Part shown: one piece after another, positions 33,854 through 43,132 of the stretch
Layout: each line of letters begins with the position of its first letter
Numbering within the stretch: the stretch's first letter is position 1
Assembly: GCA_903870555.1 (NCBI GenBank)
Contig: CAIQDO010000057.1
Location: forward strand, 1-47,322
Direction: 5' to 3'
Source of the DNA: an uncultured Caulobacteraceae bacterium
Lineage (GTDB): Bacteria; Pseudomonadota; Alphaproteobacteria; Caulobacterales; Caulobacteraceae
DNA length: 47,322 bases
Program-made: the position numbers and the translations under genes
Notes under the pieces: generated by a model
Told to the model about the DNA's origin: nothing
What the model saw: the letters and a program-made list of their open reading frames with translations, nothing else
Database searches by the model: none

Positions 33854-35569
33854 CTACTCCCCGGCGATCGCGAGGCCCGCGGGAACCGCGTCGGCCGGGT
33901 GGTTGACACTCACGGAGCTGGGCATGCCCACCGTCCGGATGACATTGTAGATCATGATGAGAGCGCCGCTCAGGTACATCAGGCCGCCCAGCGTCCGGAC
34001 CATGTATTCAATATGCTTGGCCGCCACCGTTTCGATGAAGCTGTAGGCCAGGAAGCCGTCGGGCGTATAGGCGCGCCACATCAGGCCTTCCATGATCCCG
34101 GAAACCCACATCGCGGTGATGTAAAGCAGGATGCCGGTCGTCGCGATCCAGAAGTGCCACTCGATCAGACGGTCCGAATACATCCGGTCCTTCTTCCACA
34201 GCCACGGAACCATGCAGTAGATCGAGCCGAAGCTGACGAAGCCGACCCAGCCGAGCGCGCCGGAGTGGACGTGGCCGATACCCCAATCAGTGTAGTGGCT
34301 GAGGGCGTTGACGGTGCGGATCGACATCACCGGACCTTCGAAGGTCGACATGCCGTAGAACGCCAGGGAGACCACGAACATCCGGATCACCGGGTCGGTG
34401 CGCAGCTTGTCCCAGGCGCCCGATAGCGTCATCAGGCCGTTGATCATGCCGCCCCAGGACGGCATCCACAGCATGATCGAGAAGGTCATGCCCAGGGTCT
34501 GGGTCCATTGCGGCAGGGCCGTGTAATGCAAATGGTGTGGGCCCGCCCAGATGTAGATGAAGATCAGCGCCCAGAAATGCACGATCGACAGGCGATAGCT
34601 GTAGACCGGACGTTCCGCGCGCTTGGGAATGAAGTAGTACATCATGCCCAGGAAGCCGGCGGTAAGCAGGAAGCCGACGGCGTTGTGGCCGTACCACCAC
34701 TGCACCATGGCGCTTTGCACGCCCGACCACAGTTCATAGCTCTTGTGATTCAGGAAGCTGACCGGCATGGCCAGGTTATTGAAGATATGGAGGATGGCGA
34801 TGGTGATGATGAAAGAGAGGTAGAACCAGTTGGCCACATAGATATGCGGCTCCTTGCGCTTCCAGATCGTGCCGAGGAACACCAGCAGGTAGCAGACCCA
34901 GACGATCGTCAGCCACAGGTCGGTCAGCCACTCGGGCTCGGCGTATTCCTGACCCTGGGTGATGCCCACCAGATAGCCCAGGCCGGCGAGCAGGATGAAC
35001 AGCTGATAGCCCCAGAACACGAACCAGGGCAGCATGCCGCCGAACAGCTTGGCCTTGCAGGTCCGCTGAACGACCCAGAACGACGTGGCGATCAGGGCGT
35101 TGCCGCCGAAGGCGAAAATCACCGCCGAGGTGTGCAGCGGCCGAAGACGGCCGAAGTTCAGGAAGCCGAATTCCGGAAAATAGAAAATCCTTGGCCAGGT
35201 CAGCTGCGACGCGATGATCACCCCGACCAGCATGCCCGCGGCGCCCCAGAACAGGGTGGCGATCACGCCCGCCTTGATCACGTTGTCGGAATACCGCGAA
35301 CTGTCCTGCTTGAAGCCCCCCGAGGCGAGCCCTCCGACCAGGATCGCCGCCGCCGCGACGAACCCGATGATGAAAATGGCGCCCTGAAACTGGAACAGCG
35401 GATCCTGAGACAGGACGGTGGCGACGGTGGCGAGCAACGCGCCCAACACCGAAACGAGCAGGAGGACTGGCGCGCCCCCTGTCCCGACGGCGGCTGGCGC
35501 TCTCCCCGTGGAAGGCGTGGTTGACAAGGATTTCCCCAATTTGACGCACGACTCCTGAGGCGGAGCCAT
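33854..35569 (-). CDS. ccoN: cbb3-type cytochrome c oxidase subunit I
   Basis: Heme-copper oxidase fold; [65 protein letters not shown]. Start set at internal ATG 35569 because the longest-ORF ATG (35605) overlaps the FNR-type box; TTG at 35539 is an alternative. Confidence 0.96.
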
Positions 35570-35604
35570 GCGGCACTCCCTCGCCCGCATGCAACCGAGG
35601 AGCA

Positions 35605-35618
35605 TTGACGTGGATCAA
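35605..35618. promoter_or_regulatory. FNR/FixK-type binding site (anaerobox) in the ccoN divergent promoter region
   Basis: TTGAC-GTGG-ATCAA, near-perfect match to TTGAT-N4-ATCAA; centre ~42 bp upstream of ccoN start. Confidence 0.85.
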
Positions 35619-35697: not shown

Positions 35698-35955
35698 ATG
35701 TCCCGCGAAACTCGTTCCGATCCGGTACCCTTGGCGCTGCTCGGCGCCGCAGCGTCGCTCACCACCATCGGCGGGGTCTGGTACGCAGCCCTGATGCGGG
35801 GAATCTGGGCGGCGGAAGCGCTCGGACCGATATGCCGTCACGGCGGCCCACTCGCCCTTCACTGTCCGGCCTGCTACGCGGCTCTGGCGATGATCCTCGC
35901 GGGTGTCGGCCTCGCCGGCGCCGCCGGACAACGAGCCCCGGCGCCTATCGGCTGA
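35698..35955 (+). CDS. small membrane protein with CxxC-type motif, divergent from ccoN
   Basis: MSRETRSDPVPLALLGAAASLTTIGGVWYAALMRGIWAAEALGPICRHGGPLALHCPACYAALAMILAGVGLAGAAGQRAPAPIG; GAGAAG-like RBS; two TM segments. Confidence 0.7.
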   Translation: MSRETRSDPVPLALLGAAASLTTIGGVWYAALMRGIWAAEALGPICRHGGPLALHCPACYAALAMILAGVGLAGAAGQRAPAPIG

Positions 35956-36142: not shown

Positions 36143-36156
36143 TTGAGCCAAATCAA
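36143..36156. promoter_or_regulatory. second FNR/FixK-type binding site, upstream of ferredoxin/di-iron oxygenase genes
   Basis: TTGAG-CCAA-ATCAA; one deviation from TTGAT-N4-ATCAA; ~120 bp upstream of the ferredoxin GTG. Confidence 0.72.
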
Positions 36157-36271
36157 AGTTGACGGTCCCGTCACCTTTAGGGTCTGGGGACCGACCCGAA
36201 CAACGGCGCGAGCTGGGTCTTTGCCGAAGGCGAAGCATAAGGTCGACGGCGTTGGGCGGGGAAGGAGTCGC

Positions 36272-36592
36272 GTGGTCAAGGTCAGATATATCGAGCCAGG
36301 CGGGGCCGAACATTGCGTGGATGTCGCGGCGGGGCGTTCCATCATGGACGGCGCCAAGCGCTACACGGTTCCGGGAATTGATGGAGACTGCGGCGGCGCC
36401 TGCGCCTGCGCCACCTGCCACGTCTACGTAGAGTCGCCCTGGTTCGAACGATTGCCGGCGATGGAGGAACTCGAGCATGAGATGCTCGACTTCGCGTTCG
36501 ACGTCACCCCAAACAGCCGGCTCGGGTGTCAGGTCAAGCTCGACGATAGTCTAGAGGGTTTGACCGTACGTATCCCATCTCGTCAATACTGA
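36272..36592 (+). CDS. 2Fe-2S ferredoxin, adrenodoxin-like
   Basis: GTG start at 36272 preceded by AAGGAG; VKVRYIEPGGAEHCVDVAAGRSIMDGA...GDCGGACACATCHVYVESPW...SRLGCQVKL (CX5CX2C...C). Confidence 0.92.
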   Translation: MVKVRYIEPGGAEHCVDVAAGRSIMDGAKRYTVPGIDGDCGGACACATCHVYVESPWFERLPAMEELEHEMLDFAFDVTPNSRLGCQVKLDDSLEGLTVRIPSRQY

Positions 36593-36615
36593 AAACCAGC
36601 ACAGGGAGAGATAAA

Positions 36616-37704
36616 ATGGCTACCGTAGAACAAAGCCAAACCGCCGCACCCACCTGGAAGGTGGACATGAATCCAGACGATTTTTACAAAAACCCGATGA
36701 ACATCGCTTGGTCGTTCAAATACATCATGTCGGGCGATAAGGTCGAGGATCTGTACAAACGCGCCAAGCAAAACCAGTGGGACTCCGACGAAATCCTGCC
36801 TTGGGATACCGTCGTTGATCCCTCCAAGCCGCTGATCAACGATCGGTCAGACGTCTATCACCGCATGCCGTTTTTCGCGAAATTGAACAAGTCTCAACGT
36901 GAAACCTTCACCGCTCATTCCACCGCGCAGTTGCTGTCGCAGTTCCTGCATGGGGAACAGGGGGCGCTGATGACAGCCGCCTGCGTCACTCACTCCGTGC
37001 CCGATGCGACCGCCAAGCTCTACGCCGCCACACAGACCATGGACGAGGCGCGGCACGTGGAAGTGTACGCCCGCTACTGTGAAAAGATCGCCATCGTCTA
37101 TCCGATGTCGCTTTGGCTGAAGGCCCTGATCGACGCGACCCTGAAATCGGATCGCTACGAAAAGGTGATGATCGGCATGAACATGATCGTCGAGGGCCTG
37201 GCGCTCGGCGCCTTCAACAACATGTACCGCACGACCCAATGCGAACTGCTCAAGAAGCTGACCTTCAACGTCATGCGGGACGAATCCCGCCACGTGTCGT
37301 TCGGACACGCCTACCTCGGTCCCGTGATCGGACGCCTGCCCGAGGATGAGGTCGAGGATCTGGCCGATTTCGCCTTCCAGGCCGTCAACATCCTGGTTCA
37401 CGGCGGCACCGGCGGCACCCTGGCCAGCCGCGTCGACCCCGGCTTCCTGCAGGTGCTCGACAACAGCGGCATCGACCATGAGGATTTCTTCAAGGGCATT
37501 GAAGAGGCGGAAGCGGCCGGCATCACCCAGGAACTGCCGCCCGGACAGATCCACTCGCTGAAGGACCTGATGATGCCGGCGCTCGCCCGGGTCGGCCTGC
37601 TGACACCCACGGCCCAGAAGAAGTACCAGGACGCCGGTATTCCGATCTTTGACGATCCGAGGGTTCTGGAGGCGATGGAAGGCGGGCATCCCGTCACCGC
37701 CTGA
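36616..37704 (+). CDS. ferritin-like di-iron carboxylate protein (putative oxygenase, R2/AurF-like fold)
   Basis: 362 aa; two E...ExxH ligand sets: GEQGALM...MDEARHVEVYARY and VEGLALGAFNNMYRTTQ...RDESRHVSFG; 23 bp after ferredoxin. Confidence 0.85.
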   Translation: MATVEQSQTAAPTWKVDMNPDDFYKNPMNIAWSFKYIMSGDKVEDLYKRAKQNQWDSDEILPWDTVVDPSKPLINDRSDVYHRMPFFAKLNKSQRETFTAHSTAQLLSQFLHGEQGALMTAACVTHSVPDATAKLYAATQTMDEARHVEVYARYCEKIAIVYPMSLWLKALIDATLKSDRYEKVMIGMNMIVEGLALGAFNNMYRTTQCELLKKLTFNVMRDESRHVSFGHAYLGPVIGRLPEDEVEDLADFAFQAVNILVHGGTGGTLASRVDPGFLQVLDNSGIDHEDFFKGIEEAEAAGITQELPPGQIHSLKDLMMPALARVGLLTPTAQKKYQDAGIPIFDDPRVLEAMEGGHPVTA

Positions 37705-37764
37705 ACCGATGACCGGCCCGTTCGCGCGCAACCCGCGCGGACGGGCGCCAAGGACACCGACCGC

Positions 37765-38937
37765 ATGACCAACACCCTCCCCTCCGGCTTGGCGGCCCTT
37801 GAAGGCTTTGGCGCCGCCGTGCTCGACGCCCTGCCCGAGGCGGTGATCGTGACGGCCACGGATGGCCGCATCGTTTTCGTCAACGCGGCCACAACCCGGC
37901 TCCTGGGCTACAGCGCCGACGAGGCGGTGGGCCAGCCGATCACGCTGCTGACCCCTCGCCAGCTCGACCGACGCGCCGATCCGGTGAAGTGGCTGGCCCG
38001 TTGGGCGGCGGAGCCGGATTTCGAGCAATCGCGGTTCCTCGACCTGACCGCCCGCCGCAAGGATGGGCGGCAGCTGACCGTCGAGGTGCGGGTCCGCGAA
38101 AGCGTCATCGACGGCGAGCCACGCTACCTGATCACTGTCCGAGACAATACTGCAAGGCGTCAGGAACAGGCGGCGCTCAAGGATGCCAACCTGCGAGCGT
38201 CGCGTATCCTGATGGTCGCCGAGGACGCCATAGTGTCGATCGACGCCCATGAGACGATCCAGGACTTTAACCTCGCCGCCGAGACCATGTTTGGCTGGCG
38301 GGCCGAGGAGGTTTTTGGCGAACCCTTGTCGATCCTGATACCGCCCTGGGCGCAGGCGACCCATGTCGGACACGTGGCCGAGTTCGCCCGATCGAAGCAG
38401 CCGTCGCGGATGATGGCCGAGCGCAAACCGGTGATCGGTCGCCGCCGCTCAGGCGAAACCTTCACCCTTGAGGCCACCATCACCAAGGTGATCGTCGGCG
38501 GCGCCCTGACCTTCACGGCCCACCTGCGGGACGTGACCGAACGCAATCACGCGCGCGACCGACTGAAGGAGGCCGAGCGACGCACGCGGGCGGTATTCGA
38601 CCACGCCCATACCGCCATCGCCTTGCTCGCGCCCGATGGCCGGGTGCTGGAGATCAACCGCGCGGCGGCCGCCCTGACCGCCGACGCGGACCCGCGGGTC
38701 GGAGCGCCCCTTTGGGAATTGCCCTGGCTCGGCGTGGACATCGACGCCGGCGCCGCGGACGGCGAGCGCCTGCGCTCGGCGATCGCCGCCGCCGCCCTGG
38801 GCCGGGCCAGCCGGCTGTCGGTGACGCTGGTCCGCGACGCCCTGCCGGTCACCGTCGATGTCCGGCTCACGCCGATCTTCGACGATGCCGCGATCGCCTA
38901 TGTACTGGCCGAAGGCCGGATCGAAAGCCGCTTCTAG
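37765..38937 (+). CDS. multi-PAS protein with no recognisable output domain
   Basis: 390 aa; PAS-like repeats LDALPEAVIVTATDGRIVFVNAATTRLLGYSADEAVGQPI; ILMVAEDAIVSIDAHETIQDFNLAAETMFGWRAEEVFGEPL; VFDHAHTAIALLAPDGRVLEINRAAAALT; ends after third PAS. Confidence 0.88.
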   Translation: MTNTLPSGLAALEGFGAAVLDALPEAVIVTATDGRIVFVNAATTRLLGYSADEAVGQPITLLTPRQLDRRADPVKWLARWAAEPDFEQSRFLDLTARRKDGRQLTVEVRVRESVIDGEPRYLITVRDNTARRQEQAALKDANLRASRILMVAEDAIVSIDAHETIQDFNLAAETMFGWRAEEVFGEPLSILIPPWAQATHVGHVAEFARSKQPSRMMAERKPVIGRRRSGETFTLEATITKVIVGGALTFTAHLRDVTERNHARDRLKEAERRTRAVFDHAHTAIALLAPDGRVLEINRAAAALTADADPRVGAPLWELPWLGVDIDAGAADGERLRSAIAAAALGRASRLSVTLVRDALPVTVDVRLTPIFDDAAIAYVLAEGRIESRF

Positions 38938-40394: not shown

Positions 40395-40961
40395 TTGCCT
40401 GATCTACAAACCCCGCAAGGTCGCCTTTCCGACCCCGTGCGTTTGCGCTACCGTCGACCCACCAGCAAAGGGGATGCGGCCCTGGCCTACAAACTGAACG
40501 TCGACGGCAAGATTCGCGAGGCGGACGTAGAGGCCGATACGCCGCTCCTTTGGGTGTTGCGCGACACTCTGGGCGTACTGGGCCCGAAGTACGGCTGCGG
40601 CGTCGGCGCTTGCGGCGCCTGCACCGTGCATCTCGACGGCGTCCCGGTGAGATCCTGCCTGACGTCGGTGGACAGCGTAGGCGCGGCCAGGGTGGTCACC
40701 ATCGAGGGCGTCGGCGCCACGGACGCTGGCAGGCGCGTCCAGGCGGCCTGGTCGGCTCTGGACGTGGCGCAGTGCGGCTACTGTCAGCCCGGCCAGATCA
40801 TGTCGGCGACCGCGCTGATCGCCCGCAAGCCAAAGCCGACCGACGCCGACATCGACGCCGCCATGAGCGGCAACGTCTGCCGTTGCGCCACCTACACGCG
40901 GATTCGCGCCGCCATCAAGCACGCCGCCAACCAGCCACGGGAGGCGTCAGACCGTCTGTGA
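40395..40961 (+). CDS. iorA: isoquinoline 1-oxidoreductase alpha-like 2x[2Fe-2S] subunit (start unresolved)
   Basis: [51 protein letters not shown] ... [12 protein letters not shown] ... [18 protein letters not shown]; no in-frame ATG near the conserved N-terminus. Confidence 0.9.
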
Positions 40962-43132
40962 CAACCTCCATCGCCTCCCGGCGCGACTTTCTGAAATCCG
41001 GCGCCGCGGCGGGCGGCCTGCTGCTGTCGTTCAGCATCGCCGCCAAGGCCGAGGCGGCCGAGGCCGGCGTTCGGCCCTTGAACGCCTTTGTCCTGATCGC
41101 ACCGACAGGCCTGGTGACCATCACGGCCAAGAACCCGGAGATCGGTCAGGGCATCAAGACCATGTTGCCGATGCTGATCGCCGAGGAGCTGGACGTCGAT
41201 TGGGCCAAGGTCCGCATCGATCAGGCCGACAGCGATCCCAAGCTCTACGGCCGCCAGTTCGCCGGCGGCAGCATGGCCACGCCGCTCCACTGGGACGAGT
41301 TGCGCCGGGTCGGCGCCGCGGGCCGGGCGATGTTGATCGCCGCCGCCGCCCGGGACTGGGGCGTCCCGGCGACGGAATGCGCGACCCGGCCGGGCGTCGT
41401 CTTTCACCCCTCCGGGAAGTCCGCAACCTACGGCGAGCTCGCCGCCAAGGCGGCCGCCCTGCCCATCCCCGATCCGGCAAGCCTGAGCCTTAAGGACCCC
41501 AAGGCCTATCGCATCATCGGTAAGGCGACGCCCCAATACGACACCGCCAGGATTGTCACCGGCGCGCCCCTGTTCGGCATCGATGTGCGACGGCCCGGAA
41601 TGCTCTATGCGACCTTTGAGAAGTCGCCAGTGTTCGGCGCGAAGGTCGCCAGCGCCGACCTCGCCGCCGCCCAGGCCGTCAAGGGCGTCCGCAAGGCCTT
41701 CATCGTCGAGGGCGGCGCGGTGCTTTCCGGGCTGCTGCCCGGGGTGGCCGTGGTGGCCGACAGCTGGTGGGCGGCGCGCAAGGGTCGCGACCGGCTGAAC
41801 ACCCGATGGGCGGAGCATCCTACCTCCGGCCAGTCCACCGCCGGCTTCGCCAGACAGGCGGCCGAACTGGCCGCCGCCCCGCCGGCCCGCACCCTGCGCA
41901 ACGACGGCGACGTCGACGCGGCCCTCAGGGCCGGCGCCCATACCGTCGAGGCCGCCTACGCCTATCCGTTTCTGGCCCACGCCTCACTGGAGCCGCAGAA
42001 CTGCACCGCGGACTTCAAGGCGGGCAAACTGGAGATCTGGGCGCCGACCCAGAATCCGGAACCCGGTCGTCAGTTGGTCGCCCGCACCCTGGGGATCGCC
42101 GCCGACGACATCGTCATCCACATGACGCGATGTGGCGGCGGGTTCGGACGTCGACTGTCCAATGACTACATGGTCGAAGCCGCCTGGATCGCCCGGGAGG
42201 CCGGCGCGCCGGTGCAGCTGCTGTGGACGCGCGAGGACGACATCCGCCACGACTTCTACCGCCCGGCGGGCTTCCATTTTTTCACGGGTGGGGTGAGCGC
42301 GACGGGGGATCTGGTCGCCTGGCGCGACCACTTCATCACTCTGGGCGCAAGCCCCGATCAACTTGCCTCAAGCGCCGGCATGGCCGCCACGGAGTTCCCG
42401 GCGCGGTTTCTCCCCAATTTTCGACTGGACCTGTCGACCATGCCGTCGGGCGTGCCCACCGGTCCGCTGCGCGCGCCTGGGTCGAACGGCCTGGCCTTCG
42501 TGGTTCAATCGTTTATCGACGAACTGGCCCACGCCGCCGGAGCCGACCCCGTGGCCTTCCGGCTGAAGCTGTTGGGTGACCACAAGATGGTCGGCGATGG
42601 ACCCGGCGCCTACAACGCCGAGCGCATGCGCGGCGTGTTGCTGGCGGTCGCAGCGCAATCCGGCTGGGGAACCAGGCTTTTGCCCAAGCGATCCGGGATG
42701 GGCGTCGCCTTCCACTACAGTCACCTGGGCTATTTCGCCGAGGTCGCCCTGGTGCGGGTCGCCGCCGACGGCGCCGTCAGGGTCGAGAACGTCTGGGTCG
42801 CCGCCGACGTCGGCCGCCAGATCATCAATCCGTCAGGCGCCCTCAACCAGGTCCAGGGCGCGGTGATCGATGGCGTCTCGGTGGCTCTGTTCCAGAAGAT
42901 CACCATTGAGGGCGGCCAGACGGTGGAGAGCAATTTTGCCGACTACCCGCTGCTGCGCATCGCCGACGCGCCCAAGGTGGAGGTCCAGTTCGTGAACACC
43001 GACTATCCGCCGACCGGCCTGGGCGAGCCGGCCCTTCCCCCCGCCCTTCCCGCGGTCTGCAACGCCATCTTCGCGGCCACCGGCAAGCGCGTTCGGTCCC
43101 TTCCGATCGATCCCGCCTATCTTCGGGCGTGA
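40958..43132 (+). CDS. iorB: isoquinoline 1-oxidoreductase beta-like molybdopterin subunit, Tat-exported
   Basis: GTG start overlapping iorA stop; [23 protein letters not shown] Tat-like signal; [51 protein letters not shown]. Confidence 0.93.

Follow-up and report, generated by a model that had tools for sequence, protein, structure and literature searches.

Sequence comparisons give good support to a conserved unit of three genes, encoding a 2Fe-2S ferredoxin, a ferritin-like diiron protein, and a protein made up only of PAS domains, that is apparently switched by a low-oxygen regulator. The unit lies within a 47,322-nucleotide stretch of DNA from an uncultured Caulobacteraceae bacterium (contig CAIQDO010000057.1; hereafter, the window). 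Our preferred reading, held tentatively and at somewhat less than an even chance, is that it encodes a three-component, low-O2 oxygenase under FixK/FNR control, in which the ferredoxin feeds the diiron enzyme and a heme-PAS O2 sensor gates the supply of electrons. Many low-oxygen programs replace O2-using enzymes with O2-free ones, such as HemF with HemN and NrdAB with NrdD. The module seems to do the opposite, placing what is probably an O2-using enzyme under low-oxygen control and pairing it with an apparent output-less heme O2 sensor. If true, this would indicate that some O2-dependent step has to continue at low O2 and would reveal a new form of oxygenase control, exerted through contact with an O2 sensor rather than through transcription or phosphorylation, and it would supply a likely job for one group of PAS-only proteins. 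The triad looks like a real, undescribed part of the use of scarce oxygen by some bacteria.

TABLE 1 Features of the module and its immediate context (positions in the window)
Feature	Position	Strand	Details
FNR/FixK box TTGAGCCAAATCAA	36143..36156	+	Center ~122 bases upstream of the ferredoxin start
Adrenodoxin/putidaredoxin-type 2Fe-2S ferredoxin, 106 aa, GTG start	36272..36592	+	Fer2; homologue length; GGAAGGAG
Ferritin-like diiron protein, 362 aa, 2-His/4-carboxylate site	36616..37704	+	Ligands E114, E144, H147, E193, E223, H226
PAS-only protein: PAS1, FixL-type heme PAS2, PAS3	37765..38937	+	H200, M217, R220 invariant
Second FNR/FixK box TTGACGTGGATCAA, between divergent ccoN and module	35605..35618	.	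Counterpart box in L120, L121
ccoN of the adjoining cbb3 oxidase cluster (context, outside the module)	33854..35605	-	TIGR00780, 746 bits

The ferredoxin and diiron genes are separated by 23 bases and the diiron and PAS genes by 60 bases, and the ccoN gene of the adjoining cco cluster diverges from the module, an arrangement kept in two congeners (loci L120 and L121). This layout agrees with a first-pass annotation of the window, which had placed an FNR-type box ahead of three same-strand genes with short gaps, next to a cco cluster. The ferredoxin start assigned there, a TTG at position 36143, falls inside the box and has to be moved: homologues are 106 amino acids in length and align from a GTG at 36272 that has GGAAGGAG in front of it, and we take this GTG as the start, which therefore sets the distance between box and gene given in Table 1.

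Among 80 related loci taken from species-level genomes, the triad is conserved across the Alphaproteobacteria and recurs in the Gammaproteobacteria in the order diiron-PAS-ferredoxin; in several of the gammaproteobacterial loci, the PAS and ferredoxin genes overlap or lie within a few bases of each other. The expectation that the ferredoxin and diiron genes would be conserved as neighbors is borne out: among the 48 rows that form the proteobacterial clade of the diiron tree, a ferredoxin gene adjoins in all but four, one of which is cut by a contig end. The PAS gene is present in 33 of the 48 rows and is absent from about a third of the proteobacterial loci. That the genes have stayed adjacent despite being reordered points to selection for their joint expression. 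The distribution of the module is patchy (8 of 385 genomes spread over the class and 2 of 398 of the order), and across 16 congeners, the PAS gene never occurs without the diiron gene. More distant diiron relatives in the Myxococcota (about 48 to 56% identical) have no adjoining ferredoxin or PAS gene and no boxes, and the diiron enzyme can therefore work without them. A gene for a TetR-type regulator lies immediately upstream of the diiron gene in two Myxococcota (L062, 9363 to 9977; L065, 9318 to 9977), suggesting that the same enzyme is regulated in another way there. The conserved neighbors in Parvibaculum, which we named by eye as a large upstream protein and quinone-oxidoreductase-like and helicase-like genes, look like plain synteny.

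The box ahead of the ferredoxin gene, TTGAGCCAAATCAA, is beyond chance expectation, because its pattern has 28 matches on the two strands of the genome as opposed to 1 for a reversed control pattern and because boxes also occur at orthologous loci, at a rate far exceeding the background. When scored as an exact TTGA-N6-TCAA within 300 bases of the first gene, boxes occur in 23 of 42 testable proteobacterial loci, compared to 3.1% of random windows from the same loci (P = 6e-24, a value that treats the loci as independent although they are related). A second set of loci, with a few genomes common to the first, has a box in 20 of 28; there are none in the 17 Myxococcota loci. The inner bases of the orthologous boxes vary. 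The box precedes the ferredoxin gene in alphaproteobacterial loci and the diiron gene in gammaproteobacterial loci, thus tracking the head of the operon, whichever gene that is. All six copies in the window's genus have a box, and FNR/FixK-type control, as originally proposed from the box ahead of the three genes, is supported by these orthologous boxes. Parvibaculum-type loci (L015 to L024, from Parvibaculum and relatives) contain the module with no FNR/FixK box within 300 bases, so regulation there must differ. In two Rhodospirillaceae MAGs (L035 and L038), the diiron gene stands by itself, with an FNR/FixK box of its own and no adjoining ferredoxin or PAS gene.

The genome that contains the window also encodes a Crp/Fnr protein with a box ~130 bases upstream of its gene. 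This regulator is FixK-like rather than FNR because it has no cysteine cluster, as expected in Caulobacterales (PMC4999443, PMC2908626), in which FixLJ-FixK is in use (PMC4999443).

Membership of the module in a low-oxygen gene set, also put forward in the first pass, is further strengthened by its surroundings. About a dozen loci have cco, hemN, ompW, or nrdD in the vicinity of the module; counted by locus, the neighbors include hemN (7), OmpW (3), NrdD (2), and Crp/Fnr regulators (3), and cco adjoins the module in 4 loci, in the window, and in two congeners. When gene content with and without the module was compared for chosen families, HemN was present in all 6 genomes of the genus that have the diiron gene and in 2 of the 10 that lack it (P = 0.007, Fisher test). 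A ccoN gene occurs in 5 of the 6, and the 10 genomes lacking the diiron gene include two with partial ccoN copies and a third with a weak match. PADLOC returned no matches, and there is therefore no sign of a defense system. A literature search found no description of AurF-like or ferritin-like proteins that belong to FNR/FixK regulons or are associated with PAS and ferredoxin proteins, and a diiron-PAS operon is not mentioned, within the passages or terms searched, in two alphaproteobacterial FnrN/FixK/FnrL regulon papers (PMC4999443, PMC2908626).

The ferredoxin belongs to Pfam family Fer2 and, among proteins of known structure, is most closely related to a bacterial ferredoxin, ferredoxin VI, and putidaredoxin (matches to 3hui, E = 1e-33, and ferredoxin VI, E = 5e-29). 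By these relationships, it is of the adrenodoxin/putidaredoxin type, as the initial reading had it, a type that feeds oxygenases. No conserved reductase, substrate, or product gene was found adjoining the module.

Both ligand sets of the diiron protein, previously called intact from the window alone, are preserved throughout: E114/E144/H147 and E193/E223/H226 are invariant in 63 of 63 relatives. The alignment and an AlphaFold2 model (pLDDT 85, pTM 0.84) place these two E...ExxH sets in a four-helix ferritin-like bundle. Among the Foldseek matches listed for this model, R2lox has the best E value and AurF (2jcd) has the best query-normalized TM score (0.59/0.67). The proposed check against known diiron families came out divided, in that the protein passes the Pfam AurF cutoff (43.6 bits versus 29.6) and misses those for R2lox, but lacks the third His of the N-oxygenase subfamily. 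With the AurF/CmlI N-oxygenases (PF11583), it shares this score, the four-helix ferritin-like fold, and two E(x~30)DExxH sets. In contrast to these enzymes, the position of the third His in HxxDExxH is occupied by V219 in 48 of 50 close relatives and by Val in 13 of 13 paralogues, there is no biosynthetic cluster, and the module has a dedicated ferredoxin, a heme-PAS partner, and FixK/FNR control. The 3-His/4-carboxylate set has been described as largely unique to AurF-type N-oxygenases, and most diiron hydroxylases use 2-His/4-carboxylate sites (PMC12101540); DnfA also carries the AurF-type ligand set (PMC9478400).

The protein resembles R2lox in its Foldseek E values and in its 2-His/4-carboxylate site, but the scores for the two NCBIfam R2lox models are far below their cutoffs (31.4 versus 194 and 22.5 versus 274). 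Additionally, A117 and M188 are invariant at positions that correspond, by the known R2lox numbering, to the Val and Tyr joined in the ether cross-link. The aldehyde-deformylating oxygenase model TIGR04059 is also missed (22.7 versus 222.65), and the Phenol_Hydrox profile scores 25.5 bits versus 24.4, covering only part of the profile. Ferredoxin-fed hydroxylases and desaturases (bacterial multicomponent monooxygenases, stearoyl-ACP desaturase, and AcsF) likewise combine a 2-His/4-carboxylate diiron protein with a 2Fe-2S carrier and have DExRH-type motifs. Unlike these systems, the diiron protein of the module lacks the catalytic Thr of the helix that follows the third Glu (by comparison with MmoX and the desaturase, its place is taken by A196, which is invariant, and L197), and the operon contains a heme-PAS protein instead of a B-type regulatory protein or reductase. 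Because the third His is Val and the R2lox and aldehyde oxygenase cutoffs are missed widely, the protein belongs to a branch of the ferritin-like oxygenases that is uncharacterized and whose metal site is of the hydroxylase type. The same branch holds paralogues, 33 to 41% identical, in many genomes. One paralogous diiron family (L119, L109, and L114), 35 to 41% identical over the core and with the N-terminal sequence ITKDxxYDAVAPxDF, occurs in many genomes of the order. The paralogue from the window's own genome (L119, 3571 to 4689; C673) has no Pfam match at 1e-5, and paralogue neighborhoods gave no clue to a substrate. A plasmid search returned only relatives that are 29 to 39% identical, the annotated ones being labeled ferritin-like. 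An R2-type radical Tyr at Y151 was considered and dropped, as this residue is Phe in 10 of 50 relatives and there is no linked R1 gene.

The PAS protein is the most distinctive part of the module because it carries, on well-supported sequence and structural similarity, a FixL/DosP-type heme signature that the first-pass annotation had missed. It was correctly described there as a multi-PAS, PAS-only protein: profile searches found three PAS domains and no output domain, including histidine kinase. PAS2 matches the FixL heme domain in both structure (TM score of 0.90) and sequence (E = 1e-18), the tandem PAS1-PAS2 matches the FixL sensor half (TM score of 0.75), and a profile of the PAS orthologues retrieves FixL first and then DosP. 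The FixL heme ligand has H200 as its counterpart in the alignment, and H200, M217, and R220 are each invariant (30 of 30). The 20-residue spacing between H200 and R220 is also that of FixL (H200-R220) and DosP (H77-R97), but the phmmer alignment puts FixL R220 opposite K221, an offset of one residue. The invariant Met of PAS2 is at H+17, whereas that of DosP is at H+18. Aside from this Met and the one-residue offset after the PAS2 Arg, the protein differs from FixL and DosP in having no kinase, cyclase, or phosphodiesterase output and in having a putative oxygenase as its operon partner. PAS3 is dispensable, since it is absent in the Parvibaculum-type orthologues, most of which are of a short, two-PAS form.

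In alphaproteobacterial loci without the PAS gene, the ferredoxin has diverged about twice as far, with the diiron protein about as conserved as elsewhere. The ratio of ferredoxin to diiron distances ranges from 0.93 to 1.76 (median, 1.19) in 41 alphaproteobacterial loci with PAS and from 1.50 to 3.03 (median, 2.17) in 16 without it, a few genomes being counted twice due to their presence in two collections. In seven gammaproteobacterial loci, all with PAS, it ranges from 0.96 to 1.42. Ferredoxin residues F76, V78, and R104 are retained mainly where PAS is present. The pattern suggests one of two things: a constraint placed on the ferredoxin by the PAS protein, of the kind expected from a docking partner, or a takeover by a different ferredoxin once PAS had been lost. 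The tree contains about three independent PAS losses, all in the same direction or level (sign test, not significant), and with so few losses, the coupling is a lead rather than a test.

Under the oxygenase reading that we favor, FixK/FNR would turn on the triad for life at low O2, the module ferredoxin would deliver electrons to the diiron protein, and the 2-His/4-carboxylate site would activate O2 and oxidize C-H bonds, by hydroxylation or desaturation, in some small or lipid-like molecule. The output-less tandem-PAS protein would bind heme in PAS2, sense O2 as FixL does, and act by protein contact on the ferredoxin/diiron pair, most likely by gating electron transfer between the two according to O2. 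Against this reading stand the absence of an adjoining conserved substrate, reductase, or product gene, the Myxococcota enzymes without partners, the third or so of proteobacterial loci without PAS, the Parvibaculum loci without a box, the PAS2 Arg that lies one residue off FixL R220, and a coupling that derives from about three losses. It is somewhat unlikely that the module constitutes a multicomponent diiron oxygenase of a new kind, with the output-less FixL-type heme-PAS protein as a working subunit that contacts the ferredoxin, senses O2 to gate the passage of electrons to the diiron site, and in this way meters the O2-consuming reaction directly at the protein level under O2 scarcity.

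The ferredoxin and diiron protein could instead scavenge O2 or H2O2 to water and shield the O2-sensitive HemN and NrdD, with the heme-PAS protein as a sensor or regulator. Scavenging would account for the co-location with hemN and nrdD, the co-occurrence with HemN, the small ferredoxin as the only donor, and the lack of substrate genes nearby. But the fold is that of substrate-oxidizing enzymes (AurF, R2lox), the protein, at 362 amino acids, extends far past the four-helix core at both termini, in contrast to rubrerythrin, and the cbb3 oxidase already removes O2 in most module-bearing congeners; we regard this function as unlikely. A mainly signaling PAS protein, one that tunes the FixLJ-FixK cascade by forming heterodimers with FixL or some other PAS protein while the oxygenase is a separate, co-regulated function, is distinctly improbable: PAS1-PAS2 is indeed closest to the FixL sensor half, and the cascade is in use in Caulobacterales (PMC4999443), but among the 16 congeners the PAS gene never occurs without the diiron gene, the linkage is kept in gammaproteobacteria, and ferredoxins diverge more slowly where PAS is present. 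It is highly improbable that the diiron protein is an N-oxygenase of the AurF type, with a nitro or nitroso compound or a related natural product as its output, since the Val at the third His position, in a ligand set described as largely unique to N-oxygenases (PMC12101540), the missing biosynthetic cluster, and the low-oxygen context all oppose what the Pfam AurF score and the AurF TM score, best among the matches listed, would suggest. The flanks of the module vary, and PAS or ferredoxin is sometimes missing, as might be expected if three unrelated genes had come to lie next to a cco cluster by accident, but the genes stay adjacent in two classes and have been rearranged together, which already refutes such a chance grouping and leaves it a negligible probability.

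Two further features of the window are recorded here. Downstream of the module, at 40395 to 43132 on the + strand, is a molybdopterin hydroxylase pair, consisting of a 2Fe-2S small subunit (Fer2, Fer2_2) and a large subunit (MoCoBD_1/2), the predicted ORFs of which overlap. Between ccoN and the module lies a small ORF (35698 to 35955, + strand; ~85 amino acids) without a Pfam family, which has two hydrophobic stretches and the motif ICRHGGxLALHCPxC and keeps the same position in two congeners (L120 and L121).
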